Part shown: positions 2-51,826 of the stretch, piece by piece
Numbering within the stretch: position 1 is the stretch's first letter
Layout: each line of letters begins with the position of its first letter
The notes under the pieces: generated by a model
Database searches by the model: none
Told to the model about the DNA's origin: nothing
The model's input: the letters and a program-made list of their open reading frames with translations, nothing else
Made by a program: the position numbers and the translations under genes
NCBI GenBank assembly: GCA_017412055.1
Contig: JAFQOW010000041.1
Span: 124,001-188,000 of the forward strand
Length of the DNA stretch: 64,000 bases
Source: Lachnospiraceae bacterium
Lineage (GTDB): Bacteria > Bacillota > Clostridia > Lachnospirales > Lachnospiraceae
Direction of reading: 5' to 3'

Positions 2-670
2 ACACTTGAAAAATGTAAAAAGGATAAAGATTTTGTTGAATACGATGAAGCAAAGAAACTTTATGATAAATTAAGTCGTAAAGAACAAAAATTTGTTTCT
101 CCAAATGGCAAATATAAAGATTCTCCTAAACTTGTATTCAGATTAGGAGAACATGATAAGGATAATCTTATCGGATTTATTGATGTATATTATTTTCCTA
201 AGGAAAAGAAATCTTTATCTGATGTTGATGAATTAATAGATGATATATCCAGTTCAAAATCATTTGATGGTAGAGATGGATTCATCACAATGGCAGTAGA
301 CCCAAAATATAGAGGAAAGGGTATTGCGAAAAAGTTATTATCAGCTGCTGCTAAGAAAGCTAAGGAGGTTGGTTTAGATGCATTAACGTATGAAGTAGAA
401 TATAAAAATAAGCCTTCTATTAACTTTATACAGAAATTTAGTAGCAAGTTTAAGAATGAAACACCTGCACCTAAGACTGATAAGGATTCTGGAACTTTAA
501 TATTCAGATACCGCTTTGAAAAGGATGAAGATGAAATGACTTCTGCTATTTTATCTACAGCCCCACAGGGTGGAGCATTAGAATGTGGAGATAATTATGC
601 ACCAGGTGACATGCGAGTTCCTAAAGTTTTAGGAAAAATACAACGTCGCAAGAAAAAAAGCATGATATAA
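2..670 (+). CDS. GNAT acetyltransferase with capsid-like C-terminal tail (5' partial)
   Basis: The frame is open from the window edge, so the N-terminus is missing; 222 residues are visible. The acetyl-CoA binding signature of the GNAT family is clear at residues 97-112 (VDPKYRGKGIAKKLL), preceded by a strand resembling the usual beta-4 (GFITMAV). It should transfer an acetyl group from acetyl-CoA to an amine; the substrate is unknown. The last 33 residues do not belong to the GNAT fold. They read GGALxxGDNYAPGDxRxP and end in a basic stretch, and they match residues 79-105 of the major capsid protein encoded at 47989-49920. An ATG at 290 exists, but it lies inside the fold and is not the start. 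The family is certain; the role of the tail is inference. Confidence 0.85.
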   Translation, partial: TLEKCKKDKDFVEYDEAKKLYDKLSRKEQKFVSPNGKYKDSPKLVFRLGEHDKDNLIGFIDVYYFPKEKKSLSDVDELIDDISSSKSFDGRDGFITMAVDPKYRGKGIAKKLLSAAAKKAKEVGLDALTYEVEYKNKPSINFIQKFSSKFKNETPAPKTDKDSGTLIFRYRFEKDEDEMTSAILSTAPQGGALECGDNYAPGDMRVPKVLGKIQRRKKKSMI

Positions 671-683: not shown

Positions 684-1142
684 ATGGACTTAGGTCATTG
701 GGAATTAGGAAATAATGTTACTTTACCGGAAGATTTTGAAGAAAACCCACCTATGGGTTTTGTCTATCGTATTGAAAATAAAGAAACTGGTAAATTTTAT
801 ATTGGTCAGAAAAAGATTATTAAAGTTGAAAAACGTCCTCCATTAAAGGGAAAAGTCAGAAAGCGTAAAATCGTTAAGCAATCTGATTGGAAAACTTATT
901 GCGGTAGCTCTAATGATTTAAAAAATGACGTAAAGACTTTAGGAGAAGATAAGTTTAAGTTTACCATTATTCGTTTTTGTGATTGTAAGTGGAAATGTAG
1001 CTATTGGGAGTTGTATCATCAAATGCATAACCATGTTTTGTTCAGAGAAGATTCATATAACGGTATTATTAACGTAAGAATTTCTAAATTTCAAAAATTC
1101 ATAGACCAATACCGTGAAGAACTACAGAACTTGGACATATAG
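684..1142 (+). CDS. GIY-YIG endonuclease-like protein
   Basis: 152 residues. The N-terminal half holds a GIY-YIG core: FVYRIENKETGKFYIGQKK, then W..YCGSS..L, then an acidic position in YWEL followed by Q. This order matches small GIY-YIG proteins common in T4-like phages, which are free-standing nucleases or homing-endonuclease relatives. A basic insert (about residues 50-70) sits between the YIG motif and the GSS motif. The gene follows the acetyltransferase after 13 bases and is followed by the RlaP-like gene after 5 bases. Whether it is a homing enzyme or acts in DNA processing cannot be told from sequence. Confidence 0.7.
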   Translation: MDLGHWELGNNVTLPEDFEENPPMGFVYRIENKETGKFYIGQKKIIKVEKRPPLKGKVRKRKIVKQSDWKTYCGSSNDLKNDVKTLGEDKFKFTIIRFCDCKWKCSYWELYHQMHNHVLFREDSYNGIINVRISKFQKFIDQYREELQNLDI

Positions 1143-2622: not shown

Positions 2623-3060
2623 ATGATTAATCGAAAATTTAAGACTTTTGAGACAATCGCAAGATTTAGAAAGCTTTACGAAGCTGATGAAATGGAACAA
2701 GATCCAGCTGCAGACCCATCCGCAGATCCAGCTGCCGGTGATGAAGCTCCAGCTGATGCTACAGACCCTGCCGCCGCTGAAGGTGGTGCAGAAACTGACC
2801 CAAATAAGCAGGCAGACCCTGAAGCAGGTGTTTTCATGTCTGATAATCAAAAGGCAGAAATTGCTAAGATGCTTATCGATGCACTTATGATGACTCCTCC
2901 AGAACCTGGTACAATTCCTTCTAATTTGATGAATGTTACCACTGATAATGCTGATGAAGTTATCAAATATATACAAGGTTTAAATGCTCTTAGTGCTCCT
3001 CTTTCATTAGACAATGATACAGATGAGAATGCAATGGGCGGTGCTTTAAAATCTATCTAA
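2623..3060 (+). CDS. Acidic head-type protein with cleavable-looking leader
   Basis: 145 residues. The N-terminus (MINRKFKTFETIARFRKLYE) is basic and amphipathic and ends in LYE followed by Ala, matching the (I/L)xE sites cut by T4-type prohead proteases. Residues 22-70 are an Asp/Ala/Pro-rich acidic stretch like prohead core or internal proteins. The C-terminal part is helical and the protein ends in GGALKSI, whose GGALK also occurs in the capsid N-arm. A role as an internal head or scaffold component is inferred. It is followed one base later by the nucleotidylyltransferase gene at 3062, whose leader looks similar. Confidence 0.6.
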   Translation: MINRKFKTFETIARFRKLYEADEMEQDPAADPSADPAAGDEAPADATDPAAAEGGAETDPNKQADPEAGVFMSDNQKAEIAKMLIDALMMTPPEPGTIPSNLMNVTTDNADEVIKYIQGLNALSAPLSLDNDTDENAMGGALKSI

Positions 3061-3061
3061 T

Positions 3062-3673
3062 ATGGAAAGCTTTTATTTTAGTAAATTTAATTTCCTTTTG
3101 GAATCAATGGAAAACGAAATGAAAGTTGCCATTGTTCCTGGTTCTTTTAAACCACCTCATAAGGGTCATTACGAAATGATTAAACACTATTCTGAGTTGG
3201 TAGGACCCCAAGGAAATGTATTAGTATTTGTATCTAAACCTTCTGCAAAGGCACAACGTACTACTCCTGATGGTAAAGTAATTTCACCTGAATTGGCTAA
3301 ACAAATTTTAGAAATTTATTGTTCAAATCTTCCTAATGTTCAAGTAGAAATTACTCCAGTATCTCCTGTTAAATCATGTTATGATATTGGTGAACGTTTG
3401 GATTCAGGTGTATTGATTTTTGGTTGCTCAAAGAGAGGTGAAGATATTAAGCGTTTTGCTCAAATTAAAAAGTACATTGAATCAAAAAATCCAAATCTTA
3501 TTGTACTTGACCCTGTAACTACAGCAGTTGACGCATCTGCTTCTGACGATGGCGTAGTTTCTGCTACTGATTTTAGAAATGCTTTCGGAGACCCGAAATT
3601 AATGATGCAATTTTTACCTGACCATCTAAATGATGGGACAAAAATGAAAGTTATAGAAATGCTAATGAAATAA
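3062..3673 (+). CDS. HxGH nucleotidylyltransferase (cytidylyltransferase/NMNAT-like) with leader
   Basis: 203 residues. After a short leader, residues 21-40 (KVAIVPGSFKPPHKGHYEMI) contain the HxGH nucleotide-binding signature (H33, H36), and SATDFRN near residue 166 corresponds to the second phosphate-binding motif (ISGTxxR). The family transfers AMP or CMP to substrates such as nicotinamide mononucleotide; the substrate here is not evident. The first 20 residues (with LLE followed by Ser at residues 12-15) lie outside the fold and look like a prohead-protease-cleaved leader. An internal ATG (residue 20) would give the bare enzyme, so the start is somewhat open. The gene is the last of the plus run before a shared terminator. 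Confidence 0.75.
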   Translation: MESFYFSKFNFLLESMENEMKVAIVPGSFKPPHKGHYEMIKHYSELVGPQGNVLVFVSKPSAKAQRTTPDGKVISPELAKQILEIYCSNLPNVQVEITPVSPVKSCYDIGERLDSGVLIFGCSKRGEDIKRFAQIKKYIESKNPNLIVLDPVTTAVDASASDDGVVSATDFRNAFGDPKLMMQFLPDHLNDGTKMKVIEMLMK

Positions 3674-44657: not shown

Positions 44658-46283
44658 TTATTTTAATTGTTTCAAAGTTAACATTGGGCGAGTAGCTCTT
44701 GCTGGATTTTCACCATAAGTTGTAGGTAATTCAGAAAAATATATATCACTACTAAGCACTGAAGCAGGAGTTGATATAAATCCTTCTAAAGTCTCTCTAT
44801 CCAATACCACCATGCGGGCTTTGGGTATTTTTAATTCTTCAGGAGTAGTGCTGATGATAAACATATATTTAAATTCTTCAATTGAAGCATAATGTCCTAG
44901 CATACAACCACAAGCCATTTGAGCAAAATTATTAAAGAGATGATCAGGTATTACTCGTCCGGATTTAGCTATATTAAGAATAGTATTTGAATTAACCATC
45001 TCTGTAATTAATCCTTTAATTGCAGCGTTAGCACCCGTTTGTTTTCCACCTTGCTCTGCTGCATTACAACACCAAATTGATGAATAAAAATTTATTATTT
45101 CATCCTTAATATTTGTAGATACTTCAGGAATTTTATCTACATCGCCTACTATTCCTATTATAAGTTTACATATATCTGAAATAATTGTATCTATAAAGGT
45201 ATACTTAGTATTAGGCTTTAAAGATATATTTTTACATTTTGAATAAAGCGCAAGTTTAGAATTACTATCTTCTCTTAATTTATTAAATGCTTCAGCTTCT
45301 TCAGGTTCTTTGCTAGCCACCTTTTCTTCTGAAGGTATTTGTGAATGAAAAGATGTTTTATAAAATTCCAAAAATTTTTTCAAACCGGATAGATAAGAGC
45401 TTCTAATTCCTGGAATGGCATTAAAACCACCTTGACCGCCGACACGACCGCCGCCAGCACCCATATCAGTTTTTACTTCAATTGGCACTCCATTAATAAT
45501 AATATCACCTTTTAATTCATTCCTATATAAATTTCCTGATTCATTATATGTAGTATCTTTACCTGCTTGGAAACGTCCATTCTTAGATAACAAAACTAAT
45601 AATGTTTCAAATTTACCTCGATTAGGGGTTTTAGAACCTTGAATAGAAGCTAACTCTATTATACACTCTGCAGGTAAACCAGTTTTTAATAACGTATCAA
45701 ATAAGTTATCAGTTGCTTTTATTTCTAATAAATTGCTTAATTCTAAATAATTTCCATTACTATAAAAATTATAAAAAGCTTCAACCCATTCGCCATTTTT
45801 ATAAAAGAATAAAGATTTAATTAAATCAAATAAATCAGTATTTGCATCAAACTTACCTTCTTCATCATAGAATCCGCCTTTATCCTTTTTCTTTTTATTT
45901 CCCTTACTATCATATCCTTGTAATTTACCTATGTTAGTTTGCTTCATTCTTTCTATAACAGCATTAAGTTTATAGTTAGCATTATGCATTAGCCAAAACA
46001 TAGTTTTTAAATTATTTGCATCATATGTTTCAAATAATTCATTAATTGGAACGGTAAGAAGATTAGCAAGAAGATTAATAGAATCATTAACAAATTTTTC
46101 AAAGGCATCTTGAGAAGCAAGAGCATTATTCCATTTTTTAGTCATCTCTGGCTTGCTAAGAGCCTCTGAATCTTTATGTTTGTTTACAGTTGCAGCTATA
46201 TCTTCTTTAGCTGCAACTGTATTAGTATTTTCTAATATAGCTTTATGCTTTTTAATTTTATTAAGAACTTCAAAAATTTTCAT
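44658..46283 (-). CDS. PD-(D/E)XK-like head-associated protein, copy 2
   Basis: 541 residues, paralogue of the next gene upstream (46290-47819). The middle has a nuclease-like core: SKTPNRGKFETLLVLL (Glu225), GDIIINGVPIEVK (Asp260, Glu269, Lys271) and a conserved GAGGGRVGGQ loop, which fits the E..D..ExK arrangement of PD-(D/E)XK nucleases. The N-terminus MKIFEVLNKIKKHKAILEN looks like a cleavable leader (I-L-E then Asn). It lies downstream of the capsid gene in the head operon. A packaged DNA-processing role is inferred. Confidence 0.55.
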   Translation of the reverse strand: MKIFEVLNKIKKHKAILENTNTVAAKEDIAATVNKHKDSEALSKPEMTKKWNNALASQDAFEKFVNDSINLLANLLTVPINELFETYDANNLKTMFWLMHNANYKLNAVIERMKQTNIGKLQGYDSKGNKKKKDKGGFYDEEGKFDANTDLFDLIKSLFFYKNGEWVEAFYNFYSNGNYLELSNLLEIKATDNLFDTLLKTGLPAECIIELASIQGSKTPNRGKFETLLVLLSKNGRFQAGKDTTYNESGNLYRNELKGDIIINGVPIEVKTDMGAGGGRVGGQGGFNAIPGIRSSYLSGLKKFLEFYKTSFHSQIPSEEKVASKEPEEAEAFNKLREDSNSKLALYSKCKNISLKPNTKYTFIDTIISDICKLIIGIVGDVDKIPEVSTNIKDEIINFYSSIWCCNAAEQGGKQTGANAAIKGLITEMVNSNTILNIAKSGRVIPDHLFNNFAQMACGCMLGHYASIEEFKYMFIISTTPEELKIPKARMVVLDRETLEGFISTPASVLSSDIYFSELPTTYGENPARATRPMLTLKQLK

Positions 46284-46289
46284 AACTAA

Positions 46290-47819
46290 TTAAAAATTAA
46301 TATCAATAGAAGGACGAACCTTACGTGCAGGTGCACCGTACATTTGACCGAGCTCTTTAAAGTATAAACCAGAAGCTGCTATTTCTTCAGCAGAAGCATT
46401 ACCTAAACGTTTAACCATCGCATTTGAAAGAACAAGCATTTTAGCATTGTCAAGATTCTTATCTGCATTAATAATGAAAATATAATCAAATGGTTCCAAC
46501 TCTGCATAATATGCAAAAAGCTTAGCACATGCTTGCTGAGTAAATCCAAGATAGTCAGCTTCTGCTAATATACGACCTTCTTTAGCAAACTCAACAATAC
46601 TTCTATTAGCAGTATATCCATCAATTAATTTTGCAATACTATTATTAACTTTATCTTCTACAGTAGAGTTACACCAAATTGACTTATAGAAATTAAGAGC
46701 CTCTTTCTTTACAGCAAGAGCAACTTTAGGTTCAGGGTTACCTACTACTGAAATAACAGCATTACAAATATTAGCAATTACTTCGTCAATAGTTTTTACA
46801 CCTTCACCACGAGCACCCTTAGTCAAGTCAAGAGAAAGTTCAAGATTGCCCATTGCATATGGTCCAACAAGGTCTTCAAATTGAGATGCAAGCTCTGCAT
46901 TATCCTTTGGAATCTGAGAACCGAATGTTTTAATTACATTCTTAGCAAAACTAACCATTGCAGTCTTATAAGCCTTTTTAATAGCTTCAACTGAGTTATA
47001 ACCTTTCTGACCTCCAACACGACCACCACCAGCACCGGCATTAACTTTTAATTCAATACCCTTATTAGCGATAATAACGTCACCAGATTCTTTATCATCA
47101 TATCCGGAAGTCTTAGCAGTTACCTTAAACTTACCACCTTTACAAAGAAGTGCGAAGAGAGTTTCAAATCGTCCACGGTTAGGGGTTTGAGAACCAGTAG
47201 TAGCAGCAATACGCTTAATGCATTCCATTGGCAAACCAGTAGATTCGAATACACTGAAAAGGTCGTCAATACGTTTTACATCTCCAGCTAATGTGTCCAA
47301 CTTAATAGAACGAGCTTCAAAGTTTTCATAGAATTCCGCAAGAGGCTTTACCCAGTCACCGTTTTCATAAAGTAGCATGGACTTCAACTCAGTGTAAAGG
47401 TCCATATTTTGTCCAAGCTCACCCTTAAGAACATTGCCTTTCTTACCAAAACGGGTAAGTTGACCAATCTGAGAACTCTTCATACCATCAATAATACGGT
47501 TCATTTCAAGATTAGAGTTATGAATCAAGTAATAAATTGTCTTAAGGTTCTGAACATTATAAGTTTGCTCAATTTCTTCCTTAGGAAGGGTAGCAACTTG
47601 GGAAAGAAGTGTAATAATCTTTTCGATGAAATCAGAAATGTTAGAACCACCACCGTCCCAGGCCTGAGATACTTCTTTCTTAGAAACTACCTGAGTATTA
47701 ATATAGTTTGTAAGGTGATTCTTAGTTTCTTCTACAGTAGCAGCTTCTACAAGCATACCACGAGATTCATAATACTTTTTCTGTTCATCCAACTTTTTAA
47801 GGATATTATATATTTTCAT
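46290..47819 (-). CDS. PD-(D/E)XK-like head-associated protein, copy 1
   Basis: 509 residues. Homologous along its length to the 44658 product: QTPNRGRFETLFALL, SGDVIIANKGIELK and NAGAGGGRVGGQ. The leader MKIYNILKKLDEQKKYYESR runs to MLVEA, an (L)xE-Ala site like the capsid protein's LKEA. The codon usage of this copy is closer to that of the capsid gene (more G/C at third positions) than that of copy 2, suggesting higher expression. It is preceded by a terminator and TATAA-like sequences at 47830-47850. Confidence 0.55.
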   Translation of the reverse strand: MKIYNILKKLDEQKKYYESRGMLVEAATVEETKNHLTNYINTQVVSKKEVSQAWDGGGSNISDFIEKIITLLSQVATLPKEEIEQTYNVQNLKTIYYLIHNSNLEMNRIIDGMKSSQIGQLTRFGKKGNVLKGELGQNMDLYTELKSMLLYENGDWVKPLAEFYENFEARSIKLDTLAGDVKRIDDLFSVFESTGLPMECIKRIAATTGSQTPNRGRFETLFALLCKGGKFKVTAKTSGYDDKESGDVIIANKGIELKVNAGAGGGRVGGQKGYNSVEAIKKAYKTAMVSFAKNVIKTFGSQIPKDNAELASQFEDLVGPYAMGNLELSLDLTKGARGEGVKTIDEVIANICNAVISVVGNPEPKVALAVKKEALNFYKSIWCNSTVEDKVNNSIAKLIDGYTANRSIVEFAKEGRILAEADYLGFTQQACAKLFAYYAELEPFDYIFIINADKNLDNAKMLVLSNAMVKRLGNASAEEIAASGLYFKELGQMYGAPARKVRPSIDINF

Positions 47820-47988: not shown

Positions 47989-49920
47989 TTACTGAGTGAT
48001 AGGACCAGCAGGATACTGGAATGTAGAACCAAGAGTTGTATCAGCATCGAGAGTTGCAGCAACCTTAGGTGTTACGTAACCGGTTGGGTATACGCCACGA
48101 AGCTGTGCAGGAGCACCAGGCTGTGCGAAGGAATCGATGATAATGCAGTGGTAGTAGAGTTCAGCACCGAAGATGTTGTCAAGAACACCGTAACGAGTCA
48201 TGAGACCAACCTGAGGTGTGAAGTCAACTGGGTTAACTGCCTGCTGAACCATGATTGGAATGTATGGGCAGTAGATGATACCAGCGTCATAGCTTTCAGC
48301 ACCCTTGTAACCAAGCATGCAGTAGTTAGGAAGTTTAGCATCAGATTCCTCGAACATACCCTCATAACCATAACCATAGTCAGAGTTGTCGTAAACAGCG
48401 GAACGAGTATCAACATATACACTGAAACGGTTGCCACCGAGAGTACCTACCTTAGCAGTAGCCATGTTGCCAGTGGAGATATTAGCCTGAGCAGGCATTG
48501 TGGTGAACTCGTCAAGGGACTCGAGAAGAGCAGCAACGTCAGGTGTGCAAACGATGAAGTTAGCAGGTCCACGACGGTTGCGAGTCTGCATACGGATAGA
48601 CATCTTGATGAGGTGCTGATAGAAGGCACGCTGACGTTCAGCAAGCCAACGAGCGTCAGCAAGCTGTGCGTCCCAAAGAGACCACTCACCCTTGCTCAAG
48701 CAGCTGTAAAGCATGCGAACTGTCATTTCACGGTCAATTTCAGCCTGAAGCTCGTAGCTCATCTGCTGAGTAGCTTCCTGCTCGATGTCGATACCGTTAG
48801 TATTCTTAAGGTCTTCCTCAGTTTCAAGTGTCCAGGAGGTGCTGAGACGACGTGTACCAGCTTCTACGGAGCACTTCTCGAAACCGAAAGAGGTCTTAGC
48901 GATAGCGCCAGTGCCTTCATACTGCTGCATGAGAGTAGCAATACCAGTATCCTCAGGACGGAACTTCCAACGACCACCAGCGAGCTCTTCACCAAGGCGA
49001 GCATCTGCACGACCAGTGAAACGAGTATCGACCTTCTGGTAACCCATTTCAGCGGATTCCATTGTCTCAAAGAGTTCACGACCCTTACCATCCTTAGCAG
49101 TGTGGCCCCAAGAGGAAATACCAACTACAAGAGACTTAACTTCAACTGTAGTAGCGCCTTCAGCAACTGTTTCAGGAACATCAAAGGTGTATCCCCAACC
49201 TTGCTCAATGAACTTCTTACCATCCTTAGTAACCTTAACGGATGTAGTCTGAACCTGAGGATAACCCTGACCATCGATAAGAACGATAGTAGCAGCAAGT
49301 TCTTCTTCAGCAGCAGGCTTAGTACCAGCTGTAGAAAGAGTTACAGTAAGAGTAGCTTTAGTTTCGATACCCTTGATACCGGAAGCAGGATATTCAGTCT
49401 CACTCTGGAAGATGTGCTTATCATCGCTCATAATGGTATGATCGATTGTCTTAGAAGCATCACCTCTGTGGATGTGCTTGGTATCAGAATCACCGTGATG
49501 GAGAGCACCCTTAAGGTACTTGTAACGAAGAGCGAAACCAAGAGCTACCGGACCTGGCATTGGCTGAACACCAACAACCTCATTGGACATGAGGGCAGGA
49601 TAAATACGACGAACCATTGGGATCAAGATACGAGGAAGACGATTGTCGCCAGGAGCATAGTTGTCACCAACCTTAAGGGCACCACCGGTAAGACCATTCT
49701 GAGGTCCAAAGATAGAGGTGTTAGTAGCAGCCTCCTTGAGGTAACGATACTGGTTCTCGAGAAGCATAGCTGTGGATTCCTTAGCAGCCTTAGTACGGAT
49801 GGTACCGAAATCCTTACTGTTCTCAAGAAGCTTCTTCCAACGGAAAACAGCCTTCTTGGTGCGCTCACCATTCTGCTGTGTCAAAGACTTTTTGAAATTT
49901 TCTGTAGAAATTAAACTCAT
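47989..49920 (-). CDS. 23: Major capsid protein, T4 gp23 family
   Basis: 643 residues. Order of T4-type landmarks: a propeptide ending LKE-Ala (cut expected after Glu63; T4 gp23 is cut after residue 65), the N-arm GGALKVGDNYAPGDNRLPR, then RRIYPALMSNEVVGVQPMPGP matching T4's RRAIPNLIAFDICGVQPM, and a C-terminal part with NFIVCTPDVAALLE, GYKGAESYDAGIIYCPYIP and MTRYGV. It is about 120 residues longer than T4 gp23, with a beta-rich, Ig-like stretch around 175-260. Codon use is the most biased in the window. It should form the hexamers of the head shell after gp21 cleavage. Confidence 0.95.
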   Translation of the reverse strand: MSLISTENFKKSLTQQNGERTKKAVFRWKKLLENSKDFGTIRTKAAKESTAMLLENQYRYLKEAATNTSIFGPQNGLTGGALKVGDNYAPGDNRLPRILIPMVRRIYPALMSNEVVGVQPMPGPVALGFALRYKYLKGALHHGDSDTKHIHRGDASKTIDHTIMSDDKHIFQSETEYPASGIKGIETKATLTVTLSTAGTKPAAEEELAATIVLIDGQGYPQVQTTSVKVTKDGKKFIEQGWGYTFDVPETVAEGATTVEVKSLVVGISSWGHTAKDGKGRELFETMESAEMGYQKVDTRFTGRADARLGEELAGGRWKFRPEDTGIATLMQQYEGTGAIAKTSFGFEKCSVEAGTRRLSTSWTLETEEDLKNTNGIDIEQEATQQMSYELQAEIDREMTVRMLYSCLSKGEWSLWDAQLADARWLAERQRAFYQHLIKMSIRMQTRNRRGPANFIVCTPDVAALLESLDEFTTMPAQANISTGNMATAKVGTLGGNRFSVYVDTRSAVYDNSDYGYGYEGMFEESDAKLPNYCMLGYKGAESYDAGIIYCPYIPIMVQQAVNPVDFTPQVGLMTRYGVLDNIFGAELYYHCIIIDSFAQPGAPAQLRGVYPTGYVTPKVAATLDADTTLGSTFQYPAGPITQ

Positions 49921-51160: not shown

Positions 51161-51826
51161 TTAATGTAATTTACGTAAGAACTCTTTAATCTGTTCGCAG
51201 AGATACTTATCAACCTCATGTCTTGGTAGATTAATAAGAGAATTCTCTAAATTCTCATAAACTTCTTCAAATCTATTATCCTTATTACAATACCACTGTT
51301 TACTTTCAAGAATACCTTCTACGAATGCACTCTGTGAAGAAGGGTCAGAAACAATATCGAATGTGCAAAGTCTAAGATTAGAAACAATACCCGTTTTTGG
51401 GTCAACGCTACCAAGAGAGCGCGAAGATACACCGACTGTACCACCTGCTTCAATAATAATCTCAACTGTCTTACCTGTTTCAGTAGGAAGAATCTTTGAC
51501 TTACCATAGAAAACATTACCGTCTTGTTTTAATTCGGTAATCATATGGCAAGCATTTTTAAGATTAATTTGTGGATATTCAGGGTGTTCAAGTTCACCAT
51601 AAGCACGATTACGAGTTACATAGTTTTCATTAAACTCATTAATCTGTTGAGAAAGCTCCTCTAAAGGATAGATACGCTGATTACGATTGCGTCTGTTAGC
51701 CTCAGTGAACGGTCCTTTAATATAAAGAGTTTTTGGTGCGCCACTATTCTCTGACTCTTTTATAAACTCATAGTCACGAGTATCATATTGGCAATTCTCA
51801 CCAATCAAATTTAAAGCTATAGCCAT
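51161..51826 (-). CDS. 21: Prohead maturation protease, gp21-like
   Basis: 221 residues. Herpesvirus-assemblin-like serine protease of T4-type phages: NRNQRIYPLEEL, AYGELEHPEYP with catalytic His81, and GTVGVSSRSLG with the catalytic Ser (134/135), followed by FDIVSDPSSQSAFVEG. It cleaves scaffold and capsid propeptides after (I/L)xE sites. Gene order gp4-like, 21, small core, 22, 23 supports the call. Confidence 0.92.
   Translation of the reverse strand: MAIALNLIGENCQYDTRDYEFIKESENSGAPKTLYIKGPFTEANRRNRNQRIYPLEELSQQINEFNENYVTRNRAYGELEHPEYPQINLKNACHMITELKQDGNVFYGKSKILPTETGKTVEIIIEAGGTVGVSSRSLGSVDPKTGIVSNLRLCTFDIVSDPSSQSAFVEGILESKQWYCNKDNRFEEVYENLENSLINLPRHEVDKYLCEQIKEFLRKLH

Follow-up and report, generated by a model that had tools for sequence, protein, structure and literature searches.

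An acetyltransferase tagged with the capsid protein N-arm as a probable local form of a conserved head gene in Far-T4-type phages

The GNAT-type acetyltransferase encoded at the left end of the DNA stretch analysed here (64,000 nucleotides, hereafter the window) carries at its C-terminus a copy of the N-fist/N-arm segment of the same phage's major capsid protein, gp23. Judging by the sequences of the family to which it belongs, this gene is probably the form that a conserved head gene of Far-T4-type phages takes here, and its product would be an internal head protein of the T4 type, fastened by mimicry of the shell arm. The same arm motif, D-x-YAPGD-x-R-x-P-K, was found in at least 127 distinct non-capsid ORFs of IMG/VR (two wider scans included).

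Results

The window belongs to contig 44 (G000; 238,712 bases, with T4-like head genes) of a 2.88-Mb genome bin of 65 contigs. Coordinates of the features discussed are collected in Table 1.

Table 1. Positions in the window of the tagged gene, its neighbours and the head genes
Feature	Position	Strand	Basis
GNAT-type protein with gp23-arm tag	2..670	+	residues 49-270 plus stop; first 48 residues outside the window
GNAT acetyltransferase domain (cargo)	134..439	+	Pfam PF00583 Acetyltransf_1, E 2.7e-14, residues 93-194, above cut-off
gp23 N-fist/N-arm copy EMTSAILSTAPQGGALECGDNYAPGDMRVPKVLGKIQRR, strongest from 569	533..649	+	alignment, motif HMM, gp23 profile
Short basic end KKKSMI of GNAT	650..667	+	sequence; in nearly all tagged proteins the arm is followed by an end rich in Lys/Arg
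GIY-YIG SegE-like gene, conserved right neighbour of the tagged gene	684..1142	+	slot count 61/72
Small acidic/proline-rich protein with putative CTS-like leader, same gene row	2623..3060	+	inferred from sequence
Cytidylyltransferase/NMNAT-like protein, leader-like N-terminus (FLLES), same row	3062..3673	+	PHROG cytidyltransferase, E 2e-7
gp23-type major capsid protein, 643 aa	47989..49920	-	Pfam PF07068 (Gp23), E 6e-74; phrog_138
gp23 N-fist/N-arm, residues 64-105, original of the copied segment	49606..49731	-	aligned to T4 gp23 via far-T4 gp23
gp23 propeptide, residues 1-63, end L-K-E	49732..49920	-	L/I-x-E rule, PMC9026906
gp21-type prohead protease, would cut leaders	51161..51826	-	phrog_207, E 6e-55

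The GNAT protein and its tail

The GNAT ORF codes for 270 amino acids and starts 143 bases to the left of the window, at contig position 123,858. The original prediction had assigned it to the GNAT family, and rightly so: Pfam finds the acetyltransferase domain (Table 1), and the acetyl-CoA binding motif R/Q-x-x-G-x-G/A is present as YRGKGIAKKLL. The leader MKIGKVLNLINE, which lies to the left of the window (locus L001) and is followed by N, fits the L/I-x-E motif of the prohead protease. The ORF ends with GGALECGDNYAPGDMRVPKVLGKIQRRKKKSMI and TAA, the former being the translation of positions 569–667 of the plus strand. The first 27 of these 33 residues match residues 79–105 of gp23 (49606–49686, minus strand) without gaps and with 17 identities, at the very positions given in the original prediction. 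The BLOSUM62 score of this match is 92, far above chance (maximum 55 and mean 10.4 in 20,000 shuffles of the tail). The match extends upstream in a weaker form (TSIFGPQ..GGAL of gp23 against TSAILSTAPQGGAL of the GNAT tail).

The sole other match of the tail in the 2.88 Mb of the bin is gp23 (E 2e-6), and the HMM of the arm motif finds two places, gp23 and the GNAT tail. Searched against the 934 ORFs of the contig, the full gp23 profile aligns to the GNAT ORF at its tail only (E 7e-6). The ORF was also considered as a gp24-type capsid paralogue and rejected, as an HK97-fold core homologous to gp23 was not found in it; a gp24-like paralogue was likewise not found on the phage contig by the gp23 profile search. 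AlphaFold models of GNAT (2 sequences) and of the tagged protein of locus L131 (6 sequences) had a pLDDT of about 35 and were discarded as too poor.

The GNAT form of the tagged protein was seen in two phages only, that of the window and its nearest relative IMGVR_UViG_3300012979_000027, in which GNAT is 95% identical, the tail is kept and gp23 is 79% identical in the multiple alignment. With the 33-residue tail and with GNAT as queries, tblastn against cultured phages gave no match.

The copied segment of gp23

When far-T4 gp23 is aligned to T4 gp23, PKxLxxxIRR falls at about T4 residues 92–101 and the part upstream of it covers residues 66–91. In T4, residues 66–91 form the N-fist, an element that touches four subunits belonging to two capsomers and lacks order in the five portal-facing subunits; Met98 belongs to the N-arm (PMC9958956, PMC7136217). 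Both elements are interior and disordered in the prohead and shift to the outer surface at expansion (PMC9958956, PMC7136217). In gp23 of the window, L61-K62-E63 followed by A64 fits the gp21 cleavage motif L/I-x-E (PMC9026906), so that the match with GNAT begins 15 residues past the expected cut.

This gp23 is about 130–150 aa longer than far-T4 gp23s and shows poor conservation over about residues 150–290. Directly downstream of its gene (44658–47819, minus strand) two proteins of 541 and 509 aa are encoded, both without a PHROG match. They start with MKIFEVLNKIKK and MKIYNILKKLDE, close to the leader of GNAT, and can be regarded as candidates for abundant head proteins.

The family of tagged proteins

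The first IMG/VR scan, made with a degenerate DNA pattern for NYAPGDxRxP, matched gp23 genes as well as many other proteins. The core of the tag, YAPGD-x-R-x-P, is invariant, while the D two residues before it and the K after it are present in at least 90%. The next segment of gp23 is also kept in many tags (VPLIRRTFPGM at L106 versus IPMIRRTFPEL in gp23); the Met98 of the T4 N-arm is absent from them.

Most of the tagged proteins among the matches listed have about 60–115 aa and consist of a leader of about 15–25 residues, the arm and a Lys/Arg-rich end, with a median K+R content of 46% over the 35 residues past the arm motif. L/I-x-E is found within the last nine leader residues in 39 of the 53 proteins scored, as compared with 8.3 expected from shuffled leaders; leaders without it, such as YLTDN, exist too. 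An extra domain behind the arm is lacking in 101 of the 121 proteins scored. Among the matches listed, more than 110 ORF residues precede the motif in 11, and at least 90 follow it in about 20. Extra parts before the arm occur in the GNAT relative, in a DUF5661 protein (E 5e-10) and in proteins of 335–476 aa, and those after the arm form an ART-like group, an LDGNHR group, which by eye resembles ParB-type domains, and others. Neither the small tagged proteins nor most of the extra domains have a match in PHROGs or Pfam. The supposition of a fusion specific to the acetyltransferase has thus to be given up: proteins of many kinds bear the arm tag, which is what stays constant in a conserved gene, usually present once, while the enzyme is what varies. 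A module KADRCKR(R/K)ADSVYGKKTSAYKSGAIVRCR.GKIWKKK stands behind the arm tag at L165, L258 and L269, the L165 protein being without a Pfam match.

Ten tagged proteins look like ADP-ribosyltransferases by motif (L175, 11583–12506 on the minus strand; L188, L095, L131, L147, L156, L172, L235, L248 and L253). Pfam gave nothing above threshold for this group (best PF09009 at E 0.014–0.017), and a profile search of the group against the PDB found nothing relevant. All ten have an L-N-E that separates the basic stretch from the extra domain, whereas L/I-x-E comes after the basic stretch in only 4 of the 101 tagged proteins without such a domain; the pattern is suggestive only, since the ten members are related to each other. 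At L175 an I-N-E links two ART-like domains. Alt of T4, a head protein that is injected, is an ADP-ribosyltransferase.

A conserved slot

Copies of gp23 and of the tag were counted in 24 large IMG/VR contigs. Nearly all hold a single gp23 with no more than one tagged gene, and in those that span both loci each of the two is present once; a further weak and partial match in contig G016 is probably due to chance. On the contig of the window phage exactly gp23 and GNAT carry the arm motif. In most of the large contigs the tagged gene shares the strand of gp23 and lies roughly 27–45 kb upstream of it; the GNAT gene, unlike that of most other tagged phages, is on the strand opposite to gp23.

The tagged gene has two constant neighbours. 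One is a divergent gene for a protein of about 130 aa with the motif HFWV, which is present in 66 of the 67 testable loci and has no match in cultured phages; the other is the GIY-YIG SegE-like gene on the strand of the tagged gene (61 of 72 testable loci). GNAT is flanked by both of them (381–782, minus, and 1616–2071, plus, in the numbering of locus L001) and therefore occupies the slot of the family. With an arm copy that matches its own gp23 and with this gene slot, GNAT is a member of the family.

Two genes downstream of GNAT (1148–1963) an RlaP-like nucleotidyltransferase is encoded (PF10127, E 7e-22). The products of the gene row beyond the slot begin with leaders that resemble those found on T4 internal proteins, e.g. 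MKSFKQFILEQ and MKKTLKLFEQ. It is possible that this row is a cluster of head-packaged proteins. The conserved row was seen also at L114 (4166–8628), L166 (3899–8792) and L140 (5680–11241), one of its products having an NMNAT/cytidylyltransferase-like start. The GGALKSI end of the small acidic protein in Table 1 was examined as a further arm copy and rejected as chance; the arm HMM does not find that ORF.

Tag and gp23 of the same phage

In the 14 phages with both sequences available, the part upstream of YAPGD was compared between the tag and gp23 of the same phage, and the scores were set against those of shuffled pairs. Own pairs score above shuffled ones, with p <= 1e-5 for 14 pairs, 2e-5 for 10 pairs and 7e-5 for the 9 pairs that remain when the window clade and the GNQFPSQND clade are left out. 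Good examples are G012 (NEDNTAGNGGVFGSGASIGAAFNPPGKITSGDNYA versus NEDNVAGVGGVFGSGPSIGGVFNPPSQISSGDNYA) and G014 (GNQFPSQNDAAYAQGDAR versus GNQFPSQNDKAYAPGDAR). The likeness is weak in three of the 14 pairs (G004, G016 and G019), and not every own pair is the best match. The original prediction would have been at odds with tails spread over unrelated proteins without a matching gp23. The tails do sit on diverse proteins, yet the 14 pairs match as a set, three of them poorly.

Codons are the same at 6 of the 19 identical residues of the GNAT tail and gp23, in line with the codon divergence described originally, and recent gene conversion between gp23 and the tag is ruled out by this codon identity. 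Over the family, the same codon is used at 34.8% of the identical residues in own pairs versus 35.7% in cross pairs. As codon identity is no higher in own pairs, the copying of the arm is not recent and it is the peptide that is conserved, not a recent DNA copy. The greater closeness of own pairs argues against a single split followed by independent drift of the two genes. The likeness may then be accounted for either by selection holding the two peptides alike or by copying that recurs at long intervals. The notion of an old copy kept for its peptide is accordingly upheld as to age (by the codons), retention in the nearest relative and agreement with the peptide of its own phage, while selection and rare recopying are not separated by these data.

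Distribution of the tag

The tagged phages resemble the Far-T4 type, an uncultured phage group (PMC4360716); the resemblance is judged from similarity and from absence in cultured collections rather than from a tree. Two small tagged proteins gave no match in tblastn against cultured phages. Queries with gp23 N-arms over 10 cultured T4-likes (one member's arm per set) returned gp23 alone in each, and YAPGD is missing from the gp23s of ten cultured T4-likes. No occurrence of the pattern NYAPGDxRxP was found in 257 Gb of contigs from bacterial and archaeal genomes, among which the record of the window itself may not be included. The string YAPGD was not found in the open-access literature searched, nor were arm-tagged proteins found in those portions of the Far-T4 paper (PMC4360716) reached by head and capsid terms. 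Nor did we find, in that literature, a published account of a major capsid protein copied in part whose copy tracks the shell of its own phage in many different phages.

Discussion

From these sequences we infer that the tagged proteins are located in the virion and bind gp23. The leader would send the tagged protein into the prohead core, as the capsid-targeting sequences (CTS) of T4 do, and gp21 would cut it off after L/I-x-E (between MKIGKVLNLINE and N in GNAT). The arm copy would then take the binding place of an N-fist/N-arm on gp23 capsomers, most plausibly at a site lacking its own donor, for example around the portal, where the N-fists of T4 are disordered, and the basic tail would contact packaged DNA. 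The basic form of the protein would be a small, shell-bound and DNA-contacting one. An enzyme added to it would thereby be loaded into or onto the head, and the virion would carry GNAT along and might deliver it to the host. Since T4 N-fists shift to the outer surface on expansion, the tagged protein may lie inside or outside. Docking to the shell, one of the uses originally proposed for the tail, thus appears to be the likeliest; competition with capsid assembly and presentation of a substrate-like segment found no support.

A broader reading, which we put forward tentatively, is that of a general virion-loading system. The partial N-fist/N-arm copy would serve in it as a lattice-binding tag that co-evolves with the shell while the enzyme cargo is swapped, and gp21 sites in some lineages would release the cargo.

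The main rival to anchoring on the shell is that the arm copy binds another head partner (the scaffold gp22, core proteins, portal, gp21 or a chaperone) and is a recruitment signal at the time of assembly instead of a lattice anchor. The N-regions of gp23 are disordered and interior in the T4 prohead (PMC9958956) and so could be seen by the core, and the gp21-type leaders of the tagged proteins, together with L-N-E between tag and extra domain in the ART-like forms, are consistent with such a role. We nevertheless consider it rather unlikely, because the shared segment lies past the gp21 cut, and in T4 the N-fist/N-arm is ordered in the mature shell and its known partners are other gp23 subunits.

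Another possibility is that the tagged protein regulates assembly, its transient occupancy of the arm site setting head size or blocking off-path gp23 polymers, with the extra domains being incidental. The absence of a domain after the arm in most scored proteins and the conserved, usually single-copy state of the gene would agree with this; however, the Lys/Arg-rich tails and the recurrent enzyme-like or compact extra domains suggest a wider role, which makes pure regulation improbable. That the tail is a pseudo-substrate, GNAT acetylating the gp23 arm or itself, could be imagined from the two phages with the tag on an acetyltransferase, but is very hard to reconcile with the shared motif, which is not lysine-centred, and with most tagged proteins, whose enzyme domain is absent or unrelated. 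Chance, an assembly artefact or recent recombination between the gp23 and GNAT genes is refuted by the shuffles, the independent phages, the fixed slot and the codon divergence.

Anchoring by the arm copy would give this finding a wider meaning. An orphan gene family of abundant uncultured phages becomes linked to the capsid through a directly testable peptide, and it may point to a second route, beside the capsid-targeting sequence of T4, for bringing proteins into or onto phage heads. If this is true, the arm peptide would serve as a shell-specific tag for loading HK97-fold capsids, and the tagged genes would be a ready way to virion-carried enzymes in metagenomes.

Among known systems, the cargo-loading peptides of encapsulins also fasten different enzymes to an HK97-fold shell by a short terminal peptide; to our knowledge, these do not reproduce an arm of the shell protein itself. 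Soc and Hoc are added from outside after expansion and are not known to have a gp23 arm copy or a gp21 leader. In T4 both bind gp23 near capsomer junctions, and N-fists form part of the Soc sites (PMC9958956). T4 gp24, a duplicate of gp23, shares with the tagged proteins the gp23-derived sequence and a short propeptide cut by gp21 (PMC9958956), but it has the whole HK97 fold whereas the tagged proteins have the arm alone. The internal proteins of T4 are loaded by CTS propeptides (PMC9026906), and GNAT likewise has an L/I-x-E leader and a prohead protease encoded in the same genome. IPI-III and Alt resemble the tagged proteins in their short N-terminal L/I-x-E leader and in being basic small proteins or enzymes (PMC9026906), as well as in being non-shell head cargo that varies between phages. 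The reviews consulted describe no copy of the shell arm for T4 internal proteins and Alt (PMC9026906), whereas it is constant in the Far-T4-type tagged proteins and follows their own gp23. The CTS-type internal proteins of T4 are the closest known kind, to which the tagged proteins add a partial copy of their own major capsid protein.
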